Source: Bryobacteraceae bacterium
GTDB lineage: Bacteria; Acidobacteriota; Terriglobia; Bryobacterales; Bryobacteraceae
Length of the DNA stretch: 58,441 nt
Reading direction: 5' to 3'
Assembly (NCBI GenBank): GCA_025055455.1
Contig: JANWXD010000016.1
Span: 1-58,441 of the forward strand
Position numbers and translations under genes: made by a program. Every line of letters begins with the position of its first letter. The first letter of the stretch is position 1. The notes beneath the pieces were generated by a model. That model saw nothing but the letters and a program-made list of their open reading frames with translations. It was not told where the DNA came from and did no database searches. This document shows, in pieces, positions 4,272 through 39,336 of this stretch.

Positions 4272-8696
<4,425 letters not shown>

Positions 8697-32986: not shown

Positions 32987-34054
32987 TTATCCGCGGTTCA
33001 TTAGGTAGAGCATTAGGAAGAAGACGGCGGTGAAAACTAAGCTTGTGGTCGCCACGATGGCGAGGTCCCCGGACAGAGAGCGTTCCGGGCGTTCGTGGGA
33101 CACCAGCTCGGAGGGTGGCGGAGCCGGGGCGGCAGTGTCGTGCGCCGCCCGCAGTGGCGCTTCGGCCGTTGCGGGAAGGATCTCGGCGGCCTGAATGCCG
33201 TCCCCGACGGCGACATCGTAGGCCCGCAAGCGTTCTTCGATCATTTGCTTCCAGTATTGCGGATCTACGGGTAGGCGCTCCCGCACAGCGATCGGCAGCC
33301 GGTCGCGGAGCCACTCCAAAGCCGGGACGTTCGCACTCGGCACCGCCCAATAGCCCAGGGCGTCGGCCATCTGGCAAGAAAACCACAGCAGGGAATCCGG
33401 CCCGGCGTCTTCTCCCGGCGCTTGATGGTGCTGGCGGGCGGCGCGCTGGATTTCCTGCGGCAGTCCCCAGCGCTGGGCCAGAATCTCGCCGGCCTCGCAG
33501 TGGTCAATACCAAAGGCTTGCCGCTCCAGCTCCAGCGGGTCGCCGCCTGCCTCGGCGAGTTGCCGAAGCAACTTGGTGTAGTCCTCCGGGTGGGCTACCA
33601 GCAGTCCCAAGCGGCCGATGTCGTGCAAGAGGCCGGCCGTATAGGCAGAGTCTTCCGGTTGCGAGAACAGCCGCGCCAGCTCGGCGCTGAGCAGGGCGGA
33701 GGCCAAACTGTGCAGCCAGCAACGGTGCAGCTCCCGGGTCCGTAGCGCCGAACGGAGATAGTTACTGGTGGCCGCCGTCATGGCCAGATTGTGCATGCGC
33801 CTCAGGCCAAGCACGACCAGCGCGTGTTGCAAACTGTCAACGCGCGCTGTCAGCCCGAACAGGGGGGAATTGGCCAGACGCAAGATCTGCGCGGAGAGCG
33901 CCGTATCGGCAGTGATCAGCTCCACCAGTTTCCGCACGTCCACTTCCTCGTCGGACGCCAAGTCCAACACCCGCAAGACAATGGGGGGGAAAGCGGGAAT
34001 TTTCGACAGAGCCGGAAGATCTTTCCCCATGACCTCCGGCTGCGAGCCGGACAC
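32987..34054 (-). CDS. HDOD domain protein with C-terminal membrane anchor
   Basis: 355 residues from a GTG that lies 7 nt after GGAG; the ATG eight codons later is too close to its purine run. The HDOD domain covers about residues 14-215 (IPAFPPIVLRVLDLASDEEVDVRKLVELITAD, ILRLANSPLFGL, LLHDIGRLGLLVAHPE). HDOD proteins are HD-like but usually non-catalytic regulators in signalling and c-di-GMP networks. A linker rich in Ala/Pro (APLRAAHDTAAPAPPP) leads to one hydrophobic helix near the C-terminus (LAIVATTSLVFTAVFFLMLYLM). That places the domain in the cytoplasm as a tail-anchored protein. Downstream partner unknown. Confidence 0.82.
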   Translation of the reverse strand: MSGSQPEVMGKDLPALSKIPAFPPIVLRVLDLASDEEVDVRKLVELITADTALSAQILRLANSPLFGLTARVDSLQHALVVLGLRRMHNLAMTAATSNYLRSALRTRELHRCWLHSLASALLSAELARLFSQPEDSAYTAGLLHDIGRLGLLVAHPEDYTKLLRQLAEAGGDPLELERQAFGIDHCEAGEILAQRWGLPQEIQRAARQHHQAPGEDAGPDSLLWFSCQMADALGYWAVPSANVPALEWLRDRLPIAVRERLPVDPQYWKQMIEERLRAYDVAVGDGIQAAEILPATAEAPLRAAHDTAAPAPPPSELVSHERPERSLSGDLAIVATTSLVFTAVFFLMLYLMNRG

Positions 34055-34239: not shown

Positions 34240-34659
34240 CTACTCGCCGACAACCGTCACCGTGACCTCGCGCTCGCGGCTGCGGTTGTCGAAATCGCAC
34301 AACACAATTTGCTGCCACGTTCCGGTGCCGACTTTGCCCTCCACGACGGGGAAGCTCTTGGCCGTGCCGATCAGCGCACTCCTTAAGTGTGCGTATCCGT
34401 TGTCGTCCCCCCAACGGGCGTTGTGGGCGTAATTGCTGGTCACCGGGGCGATCTGATCCAGGGCCCTCCGCAGATCGGAGACGCAGCCTGGTTCGAACTC
34501 CAGCGTCGTGACGCCGAGCGTGGAACCCCGACCGGACACGTTGACGATTCCCGTCTTGATGCCGCTTTCGGCCACGATCCGTTCGACGTGGGCGCTGATG
34601 TCGATCACGTCGCAGTTGCCGCGCGTGGTAACACGGAACCGTTTTTGGAACACGGCCAC
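34240..34659 (-). CDS. YjbQ family protein (UPF0047)
   Basis: 139 residues of the YjbQ/UPF0047 family, known for weak thiamine-phosphate synthase activity in E. coli but of unknown main role. Motifs are TTRGNCDVIDISAHVERIV, GIVNVSGRGSTLGVTTLEFE and GTWQQIVLCDFDNRSREREV, matching the conserved trimeric fold. Start is GTG after GGAG, with 5 bp between it and the stop of the ParB-fold gene, so the two are probably one operon with the dCache gene. Confidence 0.88.
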   Translation of the reverse strand: MAVFQKRFRVTTRGNCDVIDISAHVERIVAESGIKTGIVNVSGRGSTLGVTTLEFEPGCVSDLRRALDQIAPVTSNYAHNARWGDDNGYAHLRSALIGTAKSFPVVEGKVGTGTWQQIVLCDFDNRSREREVTVTVVGE

Positions 34660-34664
34660 GTCTC

Positions 34665-35645
34665 TTACTCCTCCTGTTCCTCCGGGGGCCCAACGGCGCC
34701 CGCCAAATCTTCTTGCCTCACTGTTTCGATGTCGAAGCGCGCTGCGCGGTCGCGCATGGTTTTCAAGACCTGCTCGCTCGGAGGGATCCGGTCCCGGACC
34801 CAGCGCAGCGGGTTGATCCGCGCCACGACGAAGGTTCGAAGGTACGGGCTTTTGAGGCCGCGCTCTTTCAGTTTTGCCACGATCCGGCTCACCTCGTGGT
34901 CAAGGTCGAGAAGCGCCTCCGCCCGCCGCTCGCGACGCCGCAGCGCATCGCGCAAAGGCTCCTCGAAAAATTCATCCGTCCGCCGGAGGATCGGATGGTA
35001 CGCGCCTCCTGCAAAGGTGGGTGCGCGCTCGTAACACAATCCCAGTGTGACCAGCGCGGGCTCTTCCAGGTAAAACGCGAATTCGCCTTCCTTGCGGCCC
35101 GGTTGGTGGGCGAGCAGGTCGCGGTAGATGCGAATCACCTCCAGGGAACGCTCCCGCAAATTGTGGGCCTTCTCGGTATTGAGGGCCAGAATTTGCCAAG
35201 CCACTTGGGCGTCGGGAACGACGAGCGCGCTGATGGCCTTAGCGCCGAGGCGTCGCATGGCCGCCAGCCGGTGCCGTCCGTTCGGCGTCCAAAATCCTCC
35301 GCTCGGCGCAGGGATGACAATCACCGGATCCAGGAACCTTCCCGTACGCTGGATCACGTCCGCGAGCCTCTTGTGATGCGCCTCGGAAAGGTCGCGCTGA
35401 AACGGAGTGGGCTCGATGCGGTCCGTCGGCAGGATTGCCAACGCCAAGGGCGTGCCTCCGAGAGGATCCCGATAGGAGGCCACGAGCACGCCCCCCTCCC
35501 CTGCGATGCGATCCACCGCCGCTTCGAGGTCATGGCCCGTCGGAAGCAGGCACTCTCGAGGCTCCAAGCCCTGGCTTTGGGGCGCTGCTTTCCCAGGCCG
35601 CCGGCGTGGGGACCGCCGTGTCACTGGTTGGCTCTGTCGGGCCAC
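34665..35645 (-). CDS. ParB/Sulfiredoxin-fold protein, not part of a ParABS system
   Basis: 326 residues. Residues about 66-165 form a ParB N-terminal domain: LAILPTDRIEPTPFQRDLSEAHH, then the nucleotide-binding box NGRHRLAAM (122-130, the GERR-like motif), then ALNTEKAHNLRERSLEV, matching the ENIQR-type segment. There is no recognisable ParB helix-turn-helix or dimerisation tail; residues 180-326 are helical and charged. No parA or parS-like repeat is nearby. The GTG start follows GGGAG. It probably binds CTP or another nucleotide; the role is unknown. Confidence 0.7.
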   Translation of the reverse strand: MARQSQPVTRRSPRRRPGKAAPQSQGLEPRECLLPTGHDLEAAVDRIAGEGGVLVASYRDPLGGTPLALAILPTDRIEPTPFQRDLSEAHHKRLADVIQRTGRFLDPVIVIPAPSGGFWTPNGRHRLAAMRRLGAKAISALVVPDAQVAWQILALNTEKAHNLRERSLEVIRIYRDLLAHQPGRKEGEFAFYLEEPALVTLGLCYERAPTFAGGAYHPILRRTDEFFEEPLRDALRRRERRAEALLDLDHEVSRIVAKLKERGLKSPYLRTFVVARINPLRWVRDRIPPSEQVLKTMRDRAARFDIETVRQEDLAGAVGPPEEQEE

Positions 35646-35656
35646 GATGCTCCCGC

Positions 35657-36772
35657 TTAGGTGGTCACGCGCTGGGGCGATTCGATGTCCGTGATCGGTT
35701 GTTCACGGTGCACCGACAGGTACATCGCCAACAGCACCACCATCGCCAGACCGATCAGCGCCATCAATGCCACCAAGCGCCCCACGGCTCGCGTCGGAGC
35801 GAAAGCCTCCTGCACGTCCTGGCTGACCAGGACGATCCAGGCCAAGTTCCGGTAATCGTCCTTTAGCCCAGTATCGGCGAATCCAATGAGCCTGCGCGAC
35901 CCACCGGGAACGTCCGCCACCACGTAGCCCGTCTGTCGGCCTTCGAGGGTCTGAAGCGCATCCCGCACGGCCGAGTACTCGGCCGACTTGAGATTGGCCG
36001 AAAGGCTGGCTTCCGGCGAAACGATGATGGTGCCGTCTTCTTTGACCAGCGAGGCCCGTGCCGCCGCTCCCAACCGCAAGCGGTTGACGAAGGGAAACAG
36101 GCTGGAGAGGTCCACCAGCGCGTCGACCGCTCCCAAGAACCGGTTGGTACCCTCCTCGAGCACCGGCACGCCGATGCCGAAGTAATAGGATTTCGTCACT
36201 TCGTCGTACAAGACGTCGGTGACGTTCACCGCGCCGCGCCCGTCGGCGTAGATGGCGCGCCAAAAGTCCTCGTCGGCCTGAAAGTAGTCCAGCGTTTTGT
36301 GGGTGGCGGCGACGGTGGCGCCCCGTCCGTCGGTGACGGTAATTCGGAGGAAACGGGGATCGAGCTCCCGGTGTCGCCGGAGCATGCGCGAAGCTCGCGA
36401 GGCGAGCATCTGCGTCACAAAAGGCTCGGCCCCCGGCGTATTCCAGATTTTTTCGGTGCGGTCGATTCGTGCGGCGACGGCCTCCTCGCTCAAGCCTTGA
36501 TAACTGCGGTTGGCCTCCTCGATGACATCCCGGATCGCCGGACTGGAAGCCATCACGCCGACGTCCATGACCCGGTCGTGAATGAACTGGGCGACCTCGG
36601 CCGCTGTGGCCTCTGCGATCGTCTTGAAGTGGGTTCCGATGGTTCGCTCCAGCGATCTTTCGCTTTCCGAAAGGCTGTACAGCCCTGCCACGCTGATCGG
36701 CAATACCGTCAGCAACATGCCGACAAGCAGCCGCCGTGCGGGGATGCGCAGTTCGTACGCTTGCGGGGACAT
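35657..36772 (-). CDS. dCache-type membrane sensor without output domain
   Basis: 371 residues. One N-terminal transmembrane helix (LLVGMLLTVLPISVAGLYSL), a large extracytoplasmic region about residues 35-325 with dCache features (ITVTDGRGATVAATHKTLDYFQADEDFWRAIYADGRGAVNVTDVLYDE, SLVKEDGTIIVSPEASL), and a second transmembrane helix (LVALMALIGLAMVVLLAMYL). Only about 18 cytoplasmic residues remain, so there is no kinase, GGDEF or chemotaxis output. GGAGGTGAATC precedes the ATG. It is followed after 11 bp by the ParB-fold gene. Signalling must go through a partner, if any. Confidence 0.75.
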   Translation of the reverse strand: MSPQAYELRIPARRLLVGMLLTVLPISVAGLYSLSESERSLERTIGTHFKTIAEATAAEVAQFIHDRVMDVGVMASSPAIRDVIEEANRSYQGLSEEAVAARIDRTEKIWNTPGAEPFVTQMLASRASRMLRRHRELDPRFLRITVTDGRGATVAATHKTLDYFQADEDFWRAIYADGRGAVNVTDVLYDEVTKSYYFGIGVPVLEEGTNRFLGAVDALVDLSSLFPFVNRLRLGAAARASLVKEDGTIIVSPEASLSANLKSAEYSAVRDALQTLEGRQTGYVVADVPGGSRRLIGFADTGLKDDYRNLAWIVLVSQDVQEAFAPTRAVGRLVALMALIGLAMVVLLAMYLSVHREQPITDIESPQRVTT

Positions 36773-37103
36773 GATTCACCTCCGGGAACGGTGCTTTGGA
36801 CGAGAGTGAGCCTCCGCCAGGATGCCTCCAAAGCTAGCGGAGGCAGGTGGAGGCCGGAACTTCGCAAGAGGGACGAAGGCTGCCGCATCATTGCGGCCTC
36901 CTTAACTTCAGGATAGATCCGGAGTGCTCCCCCGAGAATAGCCGAACGCTGGCTCCCGGGTTTCAATCGGCAGCACCGATCGGACCATGGAGAGGAAAAT
37001 GTCGAGGGCGTGGGGCCGCTCGCTGCGCCTCAGCGGGACGGGGGGTGCCGCTCGGATTCCGGACGCTGTTGCAACTGGCTTTCATGTTTTCCCCCCGGCA
37101 TCC
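36773..37103. other. structured intergenic region between the dCache gene and feoA
   Basis: A 330-bp stretch without a convincing gene. Near the dCache gene it is packed with inverted GGAGGC/GCCTCC elements: GCCTCCGC at 36810-36817 with GCGGAGGC at 36837-36844, and GGAGGCCG at 36849-36856 with CGGCCTCC at 36894-36901, the latter enclosing CTTCG/CGAAG at 36860-36878. On the reverse strand these would fold into two stem-loops ahead of the dCache start. I recognise no known riboswitch. Confidence 0.45.
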
Positions 37104-37133
37104 TTGACAAGCCGCGGCGCTTGGATTGATACT
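37104..37133 (+). promoter_or_regulatory. predicted promoter for feoAB
   Basis: TTGACA (37104-37109), an 18-bp spacer and GATACT (37128-37133). The proposed feoA GTG is only 9 bp beyond, so the leader would be very short. Confidence 0.5.
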
Positions 37134-37142
37134 GAAGGTGCG

Positions 37143-37430
37143 GTGCAACCCAATCGCAACAGCCTTCCCCGACATGGATCCGGTACGGGGCTGGGGTCGC
37201 TGACCGATCTGCGCGAAGGCGAGGAGGCCATCCTGGATCGCCTTGAACTGCCGGAAGATTTTGCCCGCCGATTGATGGAACTTGGGTTTCTGCCCGGGAC
37301 TCGCGTCAGGGCGGCGCGCAGCGCCCCGGGAGGCGACCCGCGTGTGTACCGAGTGGACGGCTCGGAAATCGCCCTGCGCCGGGAGACCGCTTCCCGCTTG
37401 AAAATCCGCCCGGCGCAGGACGGTGCGTGA
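37143..37430 (+). CDS. feoA: FeoA family protein
   Basis: 95 residues from GTG 37143. The SH3-like FeoA domain covers residues about 22-90 (LTDLREGEEAILDRLELPEDFARRLMELGFLPGTRVRAA, ending DGSEIALRRETASRLKI). FeoA is a small cytoplasmic partner of the ferrous-iron transporter FeoB. The frame is open to 36987, but that longer start has no family resemblance and a TTGACA/GATACT promoter lies inside it. GAAGGTG lies just before the GTG. feoB follows with the ATG 7 bp after the stop. Confidence 0.85.
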   Translation: MQPNRNSLPRHGSGTGLGSLTDLREGEEAILDRLELPEDFARRLMELGFLPGTRVRAARSAPGGDPRVYRVDGSEIALRRETASRLKIRPAQDGA

Positions 37431-37437
37431 GCCGGAT

Positions 37438-39336
37438 ATGAGCACTGACCAGGAATCCCGCTCCGGCCCCATCTCGGTCGCGGTGCCGGGGCCATCCCTT
37501 GCCGCCCGCTATACGGTGGCCATCGTTGGCCCGCCCAACTCGGGTAAGTCGACGCTGTTCAACCGTCTCACCGGCCTTCATCAGAAAGTGGCCAACTTTC
37601 CCGGCGTCACGGTGGAGCAGCGCACCGGGCGCGCGCGGGTTTCGGGGCGCGAAGTGCAAGTGATCGACCTGCCCGGGTTGTACAGTCTGGAGCCGCGTTC
37701 GGAGGACGAACGCGTGGCCTGCGACGTGCTCCACGGGCGCATGAAGGGAGTCGCCAAGCCCGACGCCATTCTGCTGATCCTGGACGCCACCAACTTGGCG
37801 CGTCACCTGGTGCTGGCTGCCCCTGTGTTGGCTCTCGGAATCCCGACCCTTGTGATCCTGAACATGGCCGACGAGCTGCGGCGCCGCGGCGGCCGGGTGG
37901 ACGTCGAGGCGCTGGCCCGCCAATTGGGCGCGCCCGTGGCCCTTGTGAGCGCCGCCAAAGGGGAAGGTCTCGAGCCGGTTTTCGAATTTCTCTCGGGCGC
38001 CTTCGGCGTGCCGGCGCCGCTGGAATTGCCGGTGCTCCAAGACGTACCGCGGTGCCGCCAGTGGGCGGGCCGGGTAGGCGAGCGCGCTGGCTATCACCCG
38101 CCGGCGCCCCCGCTTTGGACCCGTCGGCTGGACGCCGTGCTTCTCCACCCAGTGGCCGGTCCCGTCATTTTCGCCCTGGTGGTGCTGGCCGTCTTTCAAT
38201 CCATCTTCTCCTGGGCGCGTCCCTTGATGGACGCGGTTCAGGGCTTGGTGTTGGCCTCCGGAGCGTGGGTTGAAGCCCGGCTGCCGGAGTCGCCCTTGCG
38301 GGCGTTGCTGGTGGAGGGCGTCTGGGGCGGGGTAGGTTCCGTAGTCGTCTTCTTACCCCAGATCCTGTTGCTGTTCCTGTTCATCGGCATCCTCGAGGAC
38401 TCCGGATATTTGGCGCGCGCCGCCCTGATTGCCGACCGCACCATGGCGCGCGTGGGCTTGCAAGGAAAGTCCTTCATCCCGCTGCTTTCCGCCTACGCCT
38501 GCGCGGTGCCAGCCATCTTAGCCACGCGAACGATCGAGAACAAGCGCGACCGCATCGCCACCATCCTGATCGCTCCGTTCATGACCTGTTCGGCGCGCTT
38601 GCCGGTCTACACCCTCATCATTGCGGCATTTCTGCCAGAACAGCCTTTGCTCGGACCGTTTCTGGGCACCCGAGCCGCGGCCCTGCTGGGTCTGTACGCC
38701 CTCGGCTTTTTTGCCGCTGTCGCCACAGCCCGCGTGTTGAAGTCCTCCATCCTCAAGAGCGAGCGCACGCCCTTTCTGCTCGAAATGCCGCCCTACCGCT
38801 GGCCGACGCTTCAGTCTCTGGGCCTGCGCTTGCTGGATCGGTCGAAGATTTTCCTCCGCCGCGCCGGCACGGTGATCCTGTGCGTCGCGATTCTCCTCTG
38901 GATTCTGGCTCACTTGCCGTTCAAAGACGGGCGGCCAGTTCCCATCCAGGAGAGCGTGGCCGGCACGCTGGGTCGGGCCATCGAGCCGCTGATCGAACCG
39001 CTGGGCTTCAACTGGAAGATCGGCATCGGGCTGATCACCTCGCTGGCGGCGCGCGAAGTGATCGTGGGGACGCTGGGCACCATTTACGGCATCGAGGGGG
39101 ACGCGCGCTCGGCCGGTCTTCAGGCCGCGCTGCGTCAAGACCTGACTCCGGGAGGCGCCGTGGCGCTGCTGGTCTTCTTCGCCTTCGCCATGCAATGCAT
39201 GTCCACAGTGGCGGTGGTGCGCCGGGAGACGGCGGGCTGGCGCTGGCCCGCGCTGCAATTCCTCTACATGGGATCGCTGGCCTACGCGAGTGCGTTTGTG
39301 GCGCACCGCCTCGTGAACTGGTGGGCGGCAGCTTGA
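37438..39336 (+). CDS. feoB: ferrous iron transport protein B
   Basis: 632 residues. The N-terminal G domain has G1 GPPNSGKST (31-39), the G2 region NFPGVTVEQ, G3 DLPGLYS (77-83) and G4 NMAD (142-145). It is followed by a multi-pass membrane part with the paired Gate motifs (PLLSAYACAVPAI, TCSARLPVY) and the C-terminal LITSLAAREVIVGTLGTIYG. FeoB imports Fe(II) across the inner membrane. I use ATG 37438; a GTG at 37423 overlapping the feoA stop is an alternative. The membrane part is somewhat short compared with the 770-residue E. coli protein, as is common in other phyla. Confidence 0.93.
   Translation: MSTDQESRSGPISVAVPGPSLAARYTVAIVGPPNSGKSTLFNRLTGLHQKVANFPGVTVEQRTGRARVSGREVQVIDLPGLYSLEPRSEDERVACDVLHGRMKGVAKPDAILLILDATNLARHLVLAAPVLALGIPTLVILNMADELRRRGGRVDVEALARQLGAPVALVSAAKGEGLEPVFEFLSGAFGVPAPLELPVLQDVPRCRQWAGRVGERAGYHPPAPPLWTRRLDAVLLHPVAGPVIFALVVLAVFQSIFSWARPLMDAVQGLVLASGAWVEARLPESPLRALLVEGVWGGVGSVVVFLPQILLLFLFIGILEDSGYLARAALIADRTMARVGLQGKSFIPLLSAYACAVPAILATRTIENKRDRIATILIAPFMTCSARLPVYTLIIAAFLPEQPLLGPFLGTRAAALLGLYALGFFAAVATARVLKSSILKSERTPFLLEMPPYRWPTLQSLGLRLLDRSKIFLRRAGTVILCVAILLWILAHLPFKDGRPVPIQESVAGTLGRAIEPLIEPLGFNWKIGIGLITSLAAREVIVGTLGTIYGIEGDARSAGLQAALRQDLTPGGAVALLVFFAFAMQCMSTVAVVRRETAGWRWPALQFLYMGSLAYASAFVAHRLVNWWAAA

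Follow-up and report, generated by a model that had tools for sequence, protein, structure and literature searches.

The 58,441-nt contig JANWXD010000016.1 of a Bryobacteraceae bacterium (assembly GCA_025055455.1; hereafter the window) carries on its minus strand three closely spaced genes, which encode a membrane sensor with a dCache_1 domain, a protein with a ParB-type fold (P0002) and a YjbQ protein (P0003). P0002 is probably a chromosomal, stand-alone nucleoside triphosphate (NTP)-binding protein that acts in trans, next to which the two other genes lie by chance. The trio is no conserved system: three genes of separate history stand side by side in one genome. Throughout, L denotes loci and G genomes, G000 being the bacterium's own genome (3.95 Mb, 145 contigs), for which the nearest named loci point to acidobacterial relatives. 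The genes and their open reading frames (ORFs) are:

35657..36772, minus strand: sensor with one transmembrane helix on either side of dCache_1; 371 aa, ATG start, ORF intact
34665..35645, minus strand: ParB-fold protein P0002; 326 aa, GTG start, ORF intact
34240..34659, minus strand: YjbQ (UPF0047) protein P0003; 139 aa, GTG start, ORF intact
32987..34054, minus strand: HDOD-domain protein; start picked by its AGGAG, membership of the trio not shown

The ParB-type domain and its family

P0002 consists of a basic N-terminal tail, a ParB/Srx-type nucleotide-binding domain (residues ~61-180) and a helical C-terminal domain (~183-316). Its structure model is confident (predicted local distance difference test, pLDDT, 90.9). 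Over residues 67-161 the model superposes on Noc and ParB structures with Z scores of 10.9-10.3 and root-mean-square deviations (rmsd) of 2.2-2.9, Noc scoring Z 10.9 at rmsd 2.2 and ParB Z 10.7; structures of SerK, SbnI and sulfiredoxin (Srx) come next over the same domain, with Z from 8.9 to 7.0. The profile of the family matches a ParB structure (4umk) at E 1.6e-4. Three ParB-like boxes were located in the domain:

35391..35411, minus strand: box I-like motif PTPFQRD, residues 79-85; T80, P81, Q83, R84 and D85 invariant in 77/77
35256..35291, minus strand: box II-like motif WTPNGRHRLAAM, residues 119-130; NGxHR where ParB has GERR
35139..35183, minus strand: box III-like motif LNTEKAHNLRERSLE, residues 155-169; aligned near ENIQREDLNPLE of 4umk

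The ParB N-terminal box NGRHRLAAM, picked out in an earlier sequence-only reading of the window, is present, and the core of box III reads LNTEKAHN in the family. Among 77 aligned sequences, 49-67% identical to the window protein, 52 columns are invariant, G26 among them. Six phyla are represented by label (Acidobacteriota, Myxococcota, Pseudomonadota, Verrucomicrobiota, Planctomycetota and Chloroflexota), the labels being taken from record titles, which mostly belong to metagenome bins. Of the 80 loci of the GTDB contig scan described below, L142 and L148 yielded no complete gene as extracted; the alignment omits L098 and the truncated L112 (175 aa), and the tree omits L112. L098, at 404 aa the longest ORF taken, was considered as a possible fusion that might betray the function, and ends in an apparent read-through stretch. 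The window copy has a branch length of 0.71 in a quick tree, against a median of 0.12. Nevertheless, of the 105 positions at which at least 90% of the 76 other members agree, it keeps 104, so that it is probably functional.

Standard profiles largely pass over the family. PF02195, the ParB_N model of Pfam, gave no match to P0002 at E ≤ 0.1 and reached E ≤ 0.01 in 3 of the 77 members; in all ten other members tested with it, it scored 12.2-14.4 bits or did not match, against a gathering score of 26.3. P0002 reaches 15.5 bits with TIGR00180, whose cut-off is 58.45. No helix-turn-helix (HTH) family scored above its cut-off in P0002 or in the members scanned, the N-terminus of L119 giving a sub-threshold HTH_AsnC match (14.4 against 27). 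The sequence-only reading, which saw no HTH, thus agrees with the profile searches; it may not hold for the model, where the part superposed on Noc (up to Noc residue 166) runs to residue 207 and takes in helices 186-193 and 196-207, which may form a degenerate HTH.

The same reading had noted neither ParA nor parS, and both observations stand. The neighbours of the P0002 gene encode the dCache sensor and YjbQ, not ParA. Allowing up to two mismatches to the parS consensus, no parS-like site is present in the window. The ParA-binding motif (L/F/I)G(K/R)G(L/F/I), placed near the N-terminus in a recent survey (PMC12704722), occurs in the first 60 residues of none of the 77 members. Elsewhere in the genome, a separate ParB is encoded at G000:C69:42210-42740 (185.6 bits, above the TIGR00180 cut-off), with a second, weak match at C87:94-324; segregation therefore has a ParB of its own. 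Considering the family profile, the model and this separate ParB on another contig, the proposal that P0002 uses a ParB-type nucleotide-binding fold outside segregation is very likely right.

On either side of the domain, the protein has parts of its own. Lysine and arginine together average 9.6 in the first 25 residues over the family, with starts as chosen by us. Structure prediction of the C-terminus, which the sequence-only reading had proposed, yielded a confident model of the last 144 residues alone (pLDDT 93.0), but not a clear counterpart: the domain has no match in the PDB at E ≤ 0.001, and its best Z is 4.8 among 93 chains, none of which reaches 5. As modelled, the helical domain is without a clear PDB match, which does not by itself prove a new fold.

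We consider it possible, though rather unlikely, that P0002 is an enzyme of the SerK/SbnI/sulfiredoxin type, that is, one performing adenine-nucleotide-dependent phosphotransfer and not a conformational switch. Its box II NGxHR is nearer to the GxHR of SerK and sulfiredoxin than to GERR. The fold is shared with SerK and SbnI, the free serine kinases (Z 8.9-7.5), and with sulfiredoxin (Z 8.9 to 6ky4), and D85, invariant in 77/77, aligns with position 29 of the SerK profile, close to the catalytic Glu30, though no residue-by-residue alignment spans that place. SerK is also the best NCBIfam match, though far below its cut-off (19.3 bits for P0002 against 380 for NF053625), and no match to it is seen beyond the N-terminal domain. 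Noc and ParB, however, align better (Z 10.9), and box III is kept in altered form. Sulfiredoxin itself is excluded: the position of its catalytic cysteine, residue 124 in box II of P0002, is R in 52 members, G in 15, L in 5, M in 4 and N in 1, and so Cys in 0/77; the family protein is also much longer.

Inheritance and neighbours of the ParB-like gene

Matches to the family are patchy. In the phylum they occur in 31 of 396 genomes, the own genome and one very weak match included, and in the order of G497 in 18 of 298, some as fragments only. Seven of 101 genomes, again with the own one, match P0002; the match in G015 is weak and a different ParB, and that in G063 is a 57-residue stretch. All eight genomes searched individually hold a single copy.

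On the family tree, which like the YjbQ tree below is a quick one, phylum labels change 6 times; the minimum possible is 5, and shuffled labels give 39.4. The exceptions are the acidobacterial L150, which groups with Polyangium, and a few Betaproteobacteria-titled rows that group with Verrucomicrobiota or Chloroflexota.

The neighbours change from locus to locus. We scanned 83 of 127 listed neighbours, selected by hand so as to reduce near-copies and doubtful small ORFs, and found 78 Pfam families, the commonest of them in four neighbours; UPF0047 (YjbQ) is one of the two families at four. In one listing, gene calling relied on a crude composition score, and single names there are unsure. Given the diverse neighbours, the clustered phylum labels and the patchy matches, the gene is mostly on its own and inherited largely within phyla.

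Some contexts deserve a mention of their own. In L089, L097, L102, L109, L110 and L117, all from Steroidobacteraceae and their kin, accA, tilS and pyrG follow downstream of the ParB-like gene, the last two, pyrG encoding CTP synthase, named by eye; this context is shared by the lineage and probably a coincidence. In G089 an intact ParB-like gene (L013:2723-3670) is followed by two fragments of its 3' end at 4334-4602 and 7591-7748 (DNA identity 87.7% and 93.0%), with HicB/HicA-like and RecQ-like genes, named by eye, in between; the 3' end of the gene may be a site of recombination or insertion there. PADLOC returned no match for the three window proteins or for L097, and for L144 a mere 12.5-bit methyltransferase match; a role in defence, which we also weighed, finds no support in it.

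The sensor, YjbQ and the trio

In the window, 11 bp separate the dCache and ParB-like genes and 5 bp the ParB-like and YjbQ genes; the intact ORFs and measured gaps bear out the three minus-strand genes of the sequence-only reading. Judged by this spacing alone, the trio is probably co-transcribed. A scan for promoters and terminators gave a single site of each kind, promoter-like and terminator-like; both lie on the plus strand and do not fit the trio. The HDOD gene starts 185 bp beyond YjbQ on the same strand. FeoA-like and FeoB genes (36987-39336) run divergently from the trio, FeoB being assigned by Pfam and FeoA by eye.

The sensor matches dCache_1 at E 1.9e-18 (67.3 bits against a cut-off of 45). 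By the best hydropathy windows its second membrane helix spans about residues 333-352, which leaves ~19-20 residues inside the cell, close to the ~18 first estimated. Pfam finds no cytoplasmic signalling domain in it, and the 11 homologues, which align over its full length, all end soon after the second membrane helix, the longest tail having ~48 residues. The arrangement of a dCache_1 domain between two transmembrane helices is common to dCache_1 chemoreceptors and sensor kinases; unlike these, the window protein has no output domain and its homologues have short tails only. The output-less build is conserved as such. The sequence-only reading had allowed that the sensor might be a frameshifted chemoreceptor or kinase; the 11 homologues of the same build rule out such a frameshifted or truncated protein. 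Eleven of 61 genomes have the gene, G000 among them, and the dCache loci of relatives have no recurring neighbour families save the gene itself, antisense ORFs and pairs common to two loci. It is an orphan sensor.

P0003 is a separate, enzyme-like protein. It matches UPF0047 at E 1.8e-31 and TIGR00149 at 99.9 bits against a cut-off of 67.75, over positions 5-132 of 132; set beside this full-length match to the YjbQ family, we found no differences. Relatives occur in 61/61 genomes, and 16 genomes besides the own one have a copy with at least 60% identity. The own genome holds three YjbQ paralogues, the subgroup of P0003 being distinct from the other two.

The trio itself was found in no other genome examined, whereas the sequence-only reading had made its proposal depend on a neighbourhood conserved beyond the strain. 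None of the six other genomes that match P0002 has a relative of the dCache, YjbQ, HDOD or FeoB genes near the match. Likewise, in relatives, 11 dCache loci from 10 genomes and 17 YjbQ loci each lack the two remaining genes, and a search at E 1e-3, which took in HDOD and FeoB as well, gave the same result; some of these loci lie near a contig end and are partly seen on one side (for example L059, L064, L067, L050, L052 and L058). All three members are matched in G063, yet on three different short contigs. Seen from the ParB-like gene, a dCache relative occurs in none of 80 loci of a GTDB contig scan and YjbQ in 4; these are the best 80 of 561 confirmed matches, and their phylum spread is that of the best 80. 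Another 29 ParB-like loci, from the phylum search, have neither. Among 31 further fetched loci, a set that includes re-fetches of eight GTDB-scan loci and several fragments, dCache is present in none and YjbQ in 4, two of them re-fetches. A few loci are duplicates with the same genes (L075 = L012, L077 = L010, L105 = L011, L150 = L013). The loci of dCache, YjbQ and ParB-like relatives together exclude the trio as a conserved unit.

Several observations nonetheless weigh against a stand-alone gene with chance neighbours. The flanks were short, 4 kb in the GTDB-scan loci and 1.5 kb in the genome-search loci, and a partner farther off would escape. Extra fragments or copies of the ParB-like gene occur in G089, G267, G672 and G760. 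A further one, in G328, is an artefact of assembly: its tail-to-tail repeat is no gene duplication but an assembly gap, where 127 bp overlap identically around a run of N. The tight spacing in the window could reflect a real link between the ParB-like protein and YjbQ. Finally, L088, L092, L096, L115, L195 and L211 have a YjbQ gene immediately upstream of their ParB-like gene and on its strand.

All six of these paired loci are acidobacterial, and their gene order is opposite to that of the window, where YjbQ lies downstream; the two pairings are therefore probably of separate origin. The paired YjbQ proteins form one clade (97%), which joins the P0003 subgroup (96% SH-aLRT) apart from the other paralogues. 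Taken by itself, the reversed recurrence of the pair in six acidobacterial genomes weakly suggests a link between the two proteins. We regard it as doubtful, however, that they work together, for instance as a nucleotide-dependent regulator or kinase with a YjbQ enzyme of the P0003 type, the window being one of two independent pairings. The pairing is rare (4/80 loci in the GTDB scan, 0/29, and two further genomes among the 31 loci), and the six pairs, forming one lineage, amount to one event. Members of the P0003 subgroup are mostly unpaired: 19 of 20 unlinked rows come from relatives' loci, none with the pair. Neither gene depends on the other, either, as a seventh acidobacterial genome (L104) keeps a YjbQ remnant beside the ParB-like gene, while in L211 the ParB-like gene is cut to its first codons. 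Together with a broken ParB-like gene in G760:C105 (L209, L212, L214, L216 and L217), these two cases show decay of the acidobacterial pair. With 139 YjbQ matches in 61 genomes, or 2.3 genes per genome, a single accidental pairing over some dozens of independent contexts is unremarkable.

Very improbable is the three-gene version, in which the dCache sensor, the ParB-like protein and YjbQ would form a membrane-cued nucleotide switch in the source lineage. It draws on the 11- and 5-bp gaps on one strand and on a sensor without its own output domain; but the sensor gene, found in 11 of 61 genomes, is beside neither partner in the 11 other dCache loci, no other ParB-like gene examined has a dCache relative beside it, and ParB-like genes do without dCache in six labelled phyla. 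The switch finds no support in these loci, and the operon reading of the trio is not worth pursuing.

It is hardly credible that the ParB-like gene is a partition gene left from a plasmid or prophage, as its modelled ParB fold, weak PHROG matches to ParB-like partition proteins (1.5e-6 for P0002, 3.6e-7 for L144) and toxin-antitoxin-like genes (by eye) beside members in at least L149 and L150 might suggest: a collection of 72,556 plasmid records has no match, none of the 25 IMG/VR stretches that fit a pattern encodes a relative, phylum labels cluster on the tree, and the ParA neighbour, the ParA motif and a parS site in the window are all missing.

Predicted nucleotide binding and relation to known ParB folds

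The preferred reading of P0002, a stand-alone protein acting in trans, would work as follows. An NTP would be bound in the ParB-type pocket formed by box I PTPFQRD, box II NGxHR and box III LNTEKAHN; this binding is predicted because of the fold and the invariant boxes. The basic N-terminal tail and the helical C-terminal domain may then couple the state of the nucleotide to a target that is provided in trans, the direction of this coupling being likewise putative. The likeliest target would be a nucleic acid, because of the basic tail.

Noc and chromosomal ParB, which are CTP-dependent DNA clamps, share the nucleotide-binding fold and, by the alignment with 4umk, the box I residues Gln and Arg, which all 77 members retain. 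Unlike them, the family has NGxHR in place of GERR, an altered box III, neither the ParA motif nor a recognised HTH, and a C-terminal domain without a clear match, and the window shows no parA neighbour or parS.

Another parallel is offered by the orphan proteins with a ParB-CTPase fold that Kaljevic et al. described in 2025; these bacterial proteins are likewise long and combine one recognised ParB-type fold with an unnamed extra domain (PMC12704722). The present family differs from them in staying below the PF02195 gathering score and in lacking relatives among the plasmid records and viral contigs searched. That survey used hmmsearch with the PF02195 gathering cut-off (PMC12704722). As the members tested score below this cut-off, the family was probably missed there, judged by our scores under a different version of the model. 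An open-access literature search found no paper on the family. The general idea of ParB folds outside segregation has already been published, and the same survey reports ParB-fold proteins that bind CTP, ATP or GTP, with neither sequence nor AlphaFold3 able to predict which (PMC12704722).

A fuller claim can be formulated: surveys of ParB folds have overlooked a widespread and sharply conserved NTP-binding family that joins a ParB-type pocket to a basic tail and a helical domain of a new kind; the family acts as a chromosomal nucleotide switch that needs neither ParA nor parS, and in some Acidobacteriota a pairing with one YjbQ subgroup has come about twice. Taken whole, it is unlikely to hold; if it were true, the double pairing would give both proteins their first shared pathway. 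The ParB fold has recently been recognised as a class of nucleotide-binding module beyond segregation. The family described here keeps 49-67% identity to the window protein over the labelled phyla, has no fixed neighbour and scores below the usual profile cut-offs, which makes it a good test case for the further roles of that fold.

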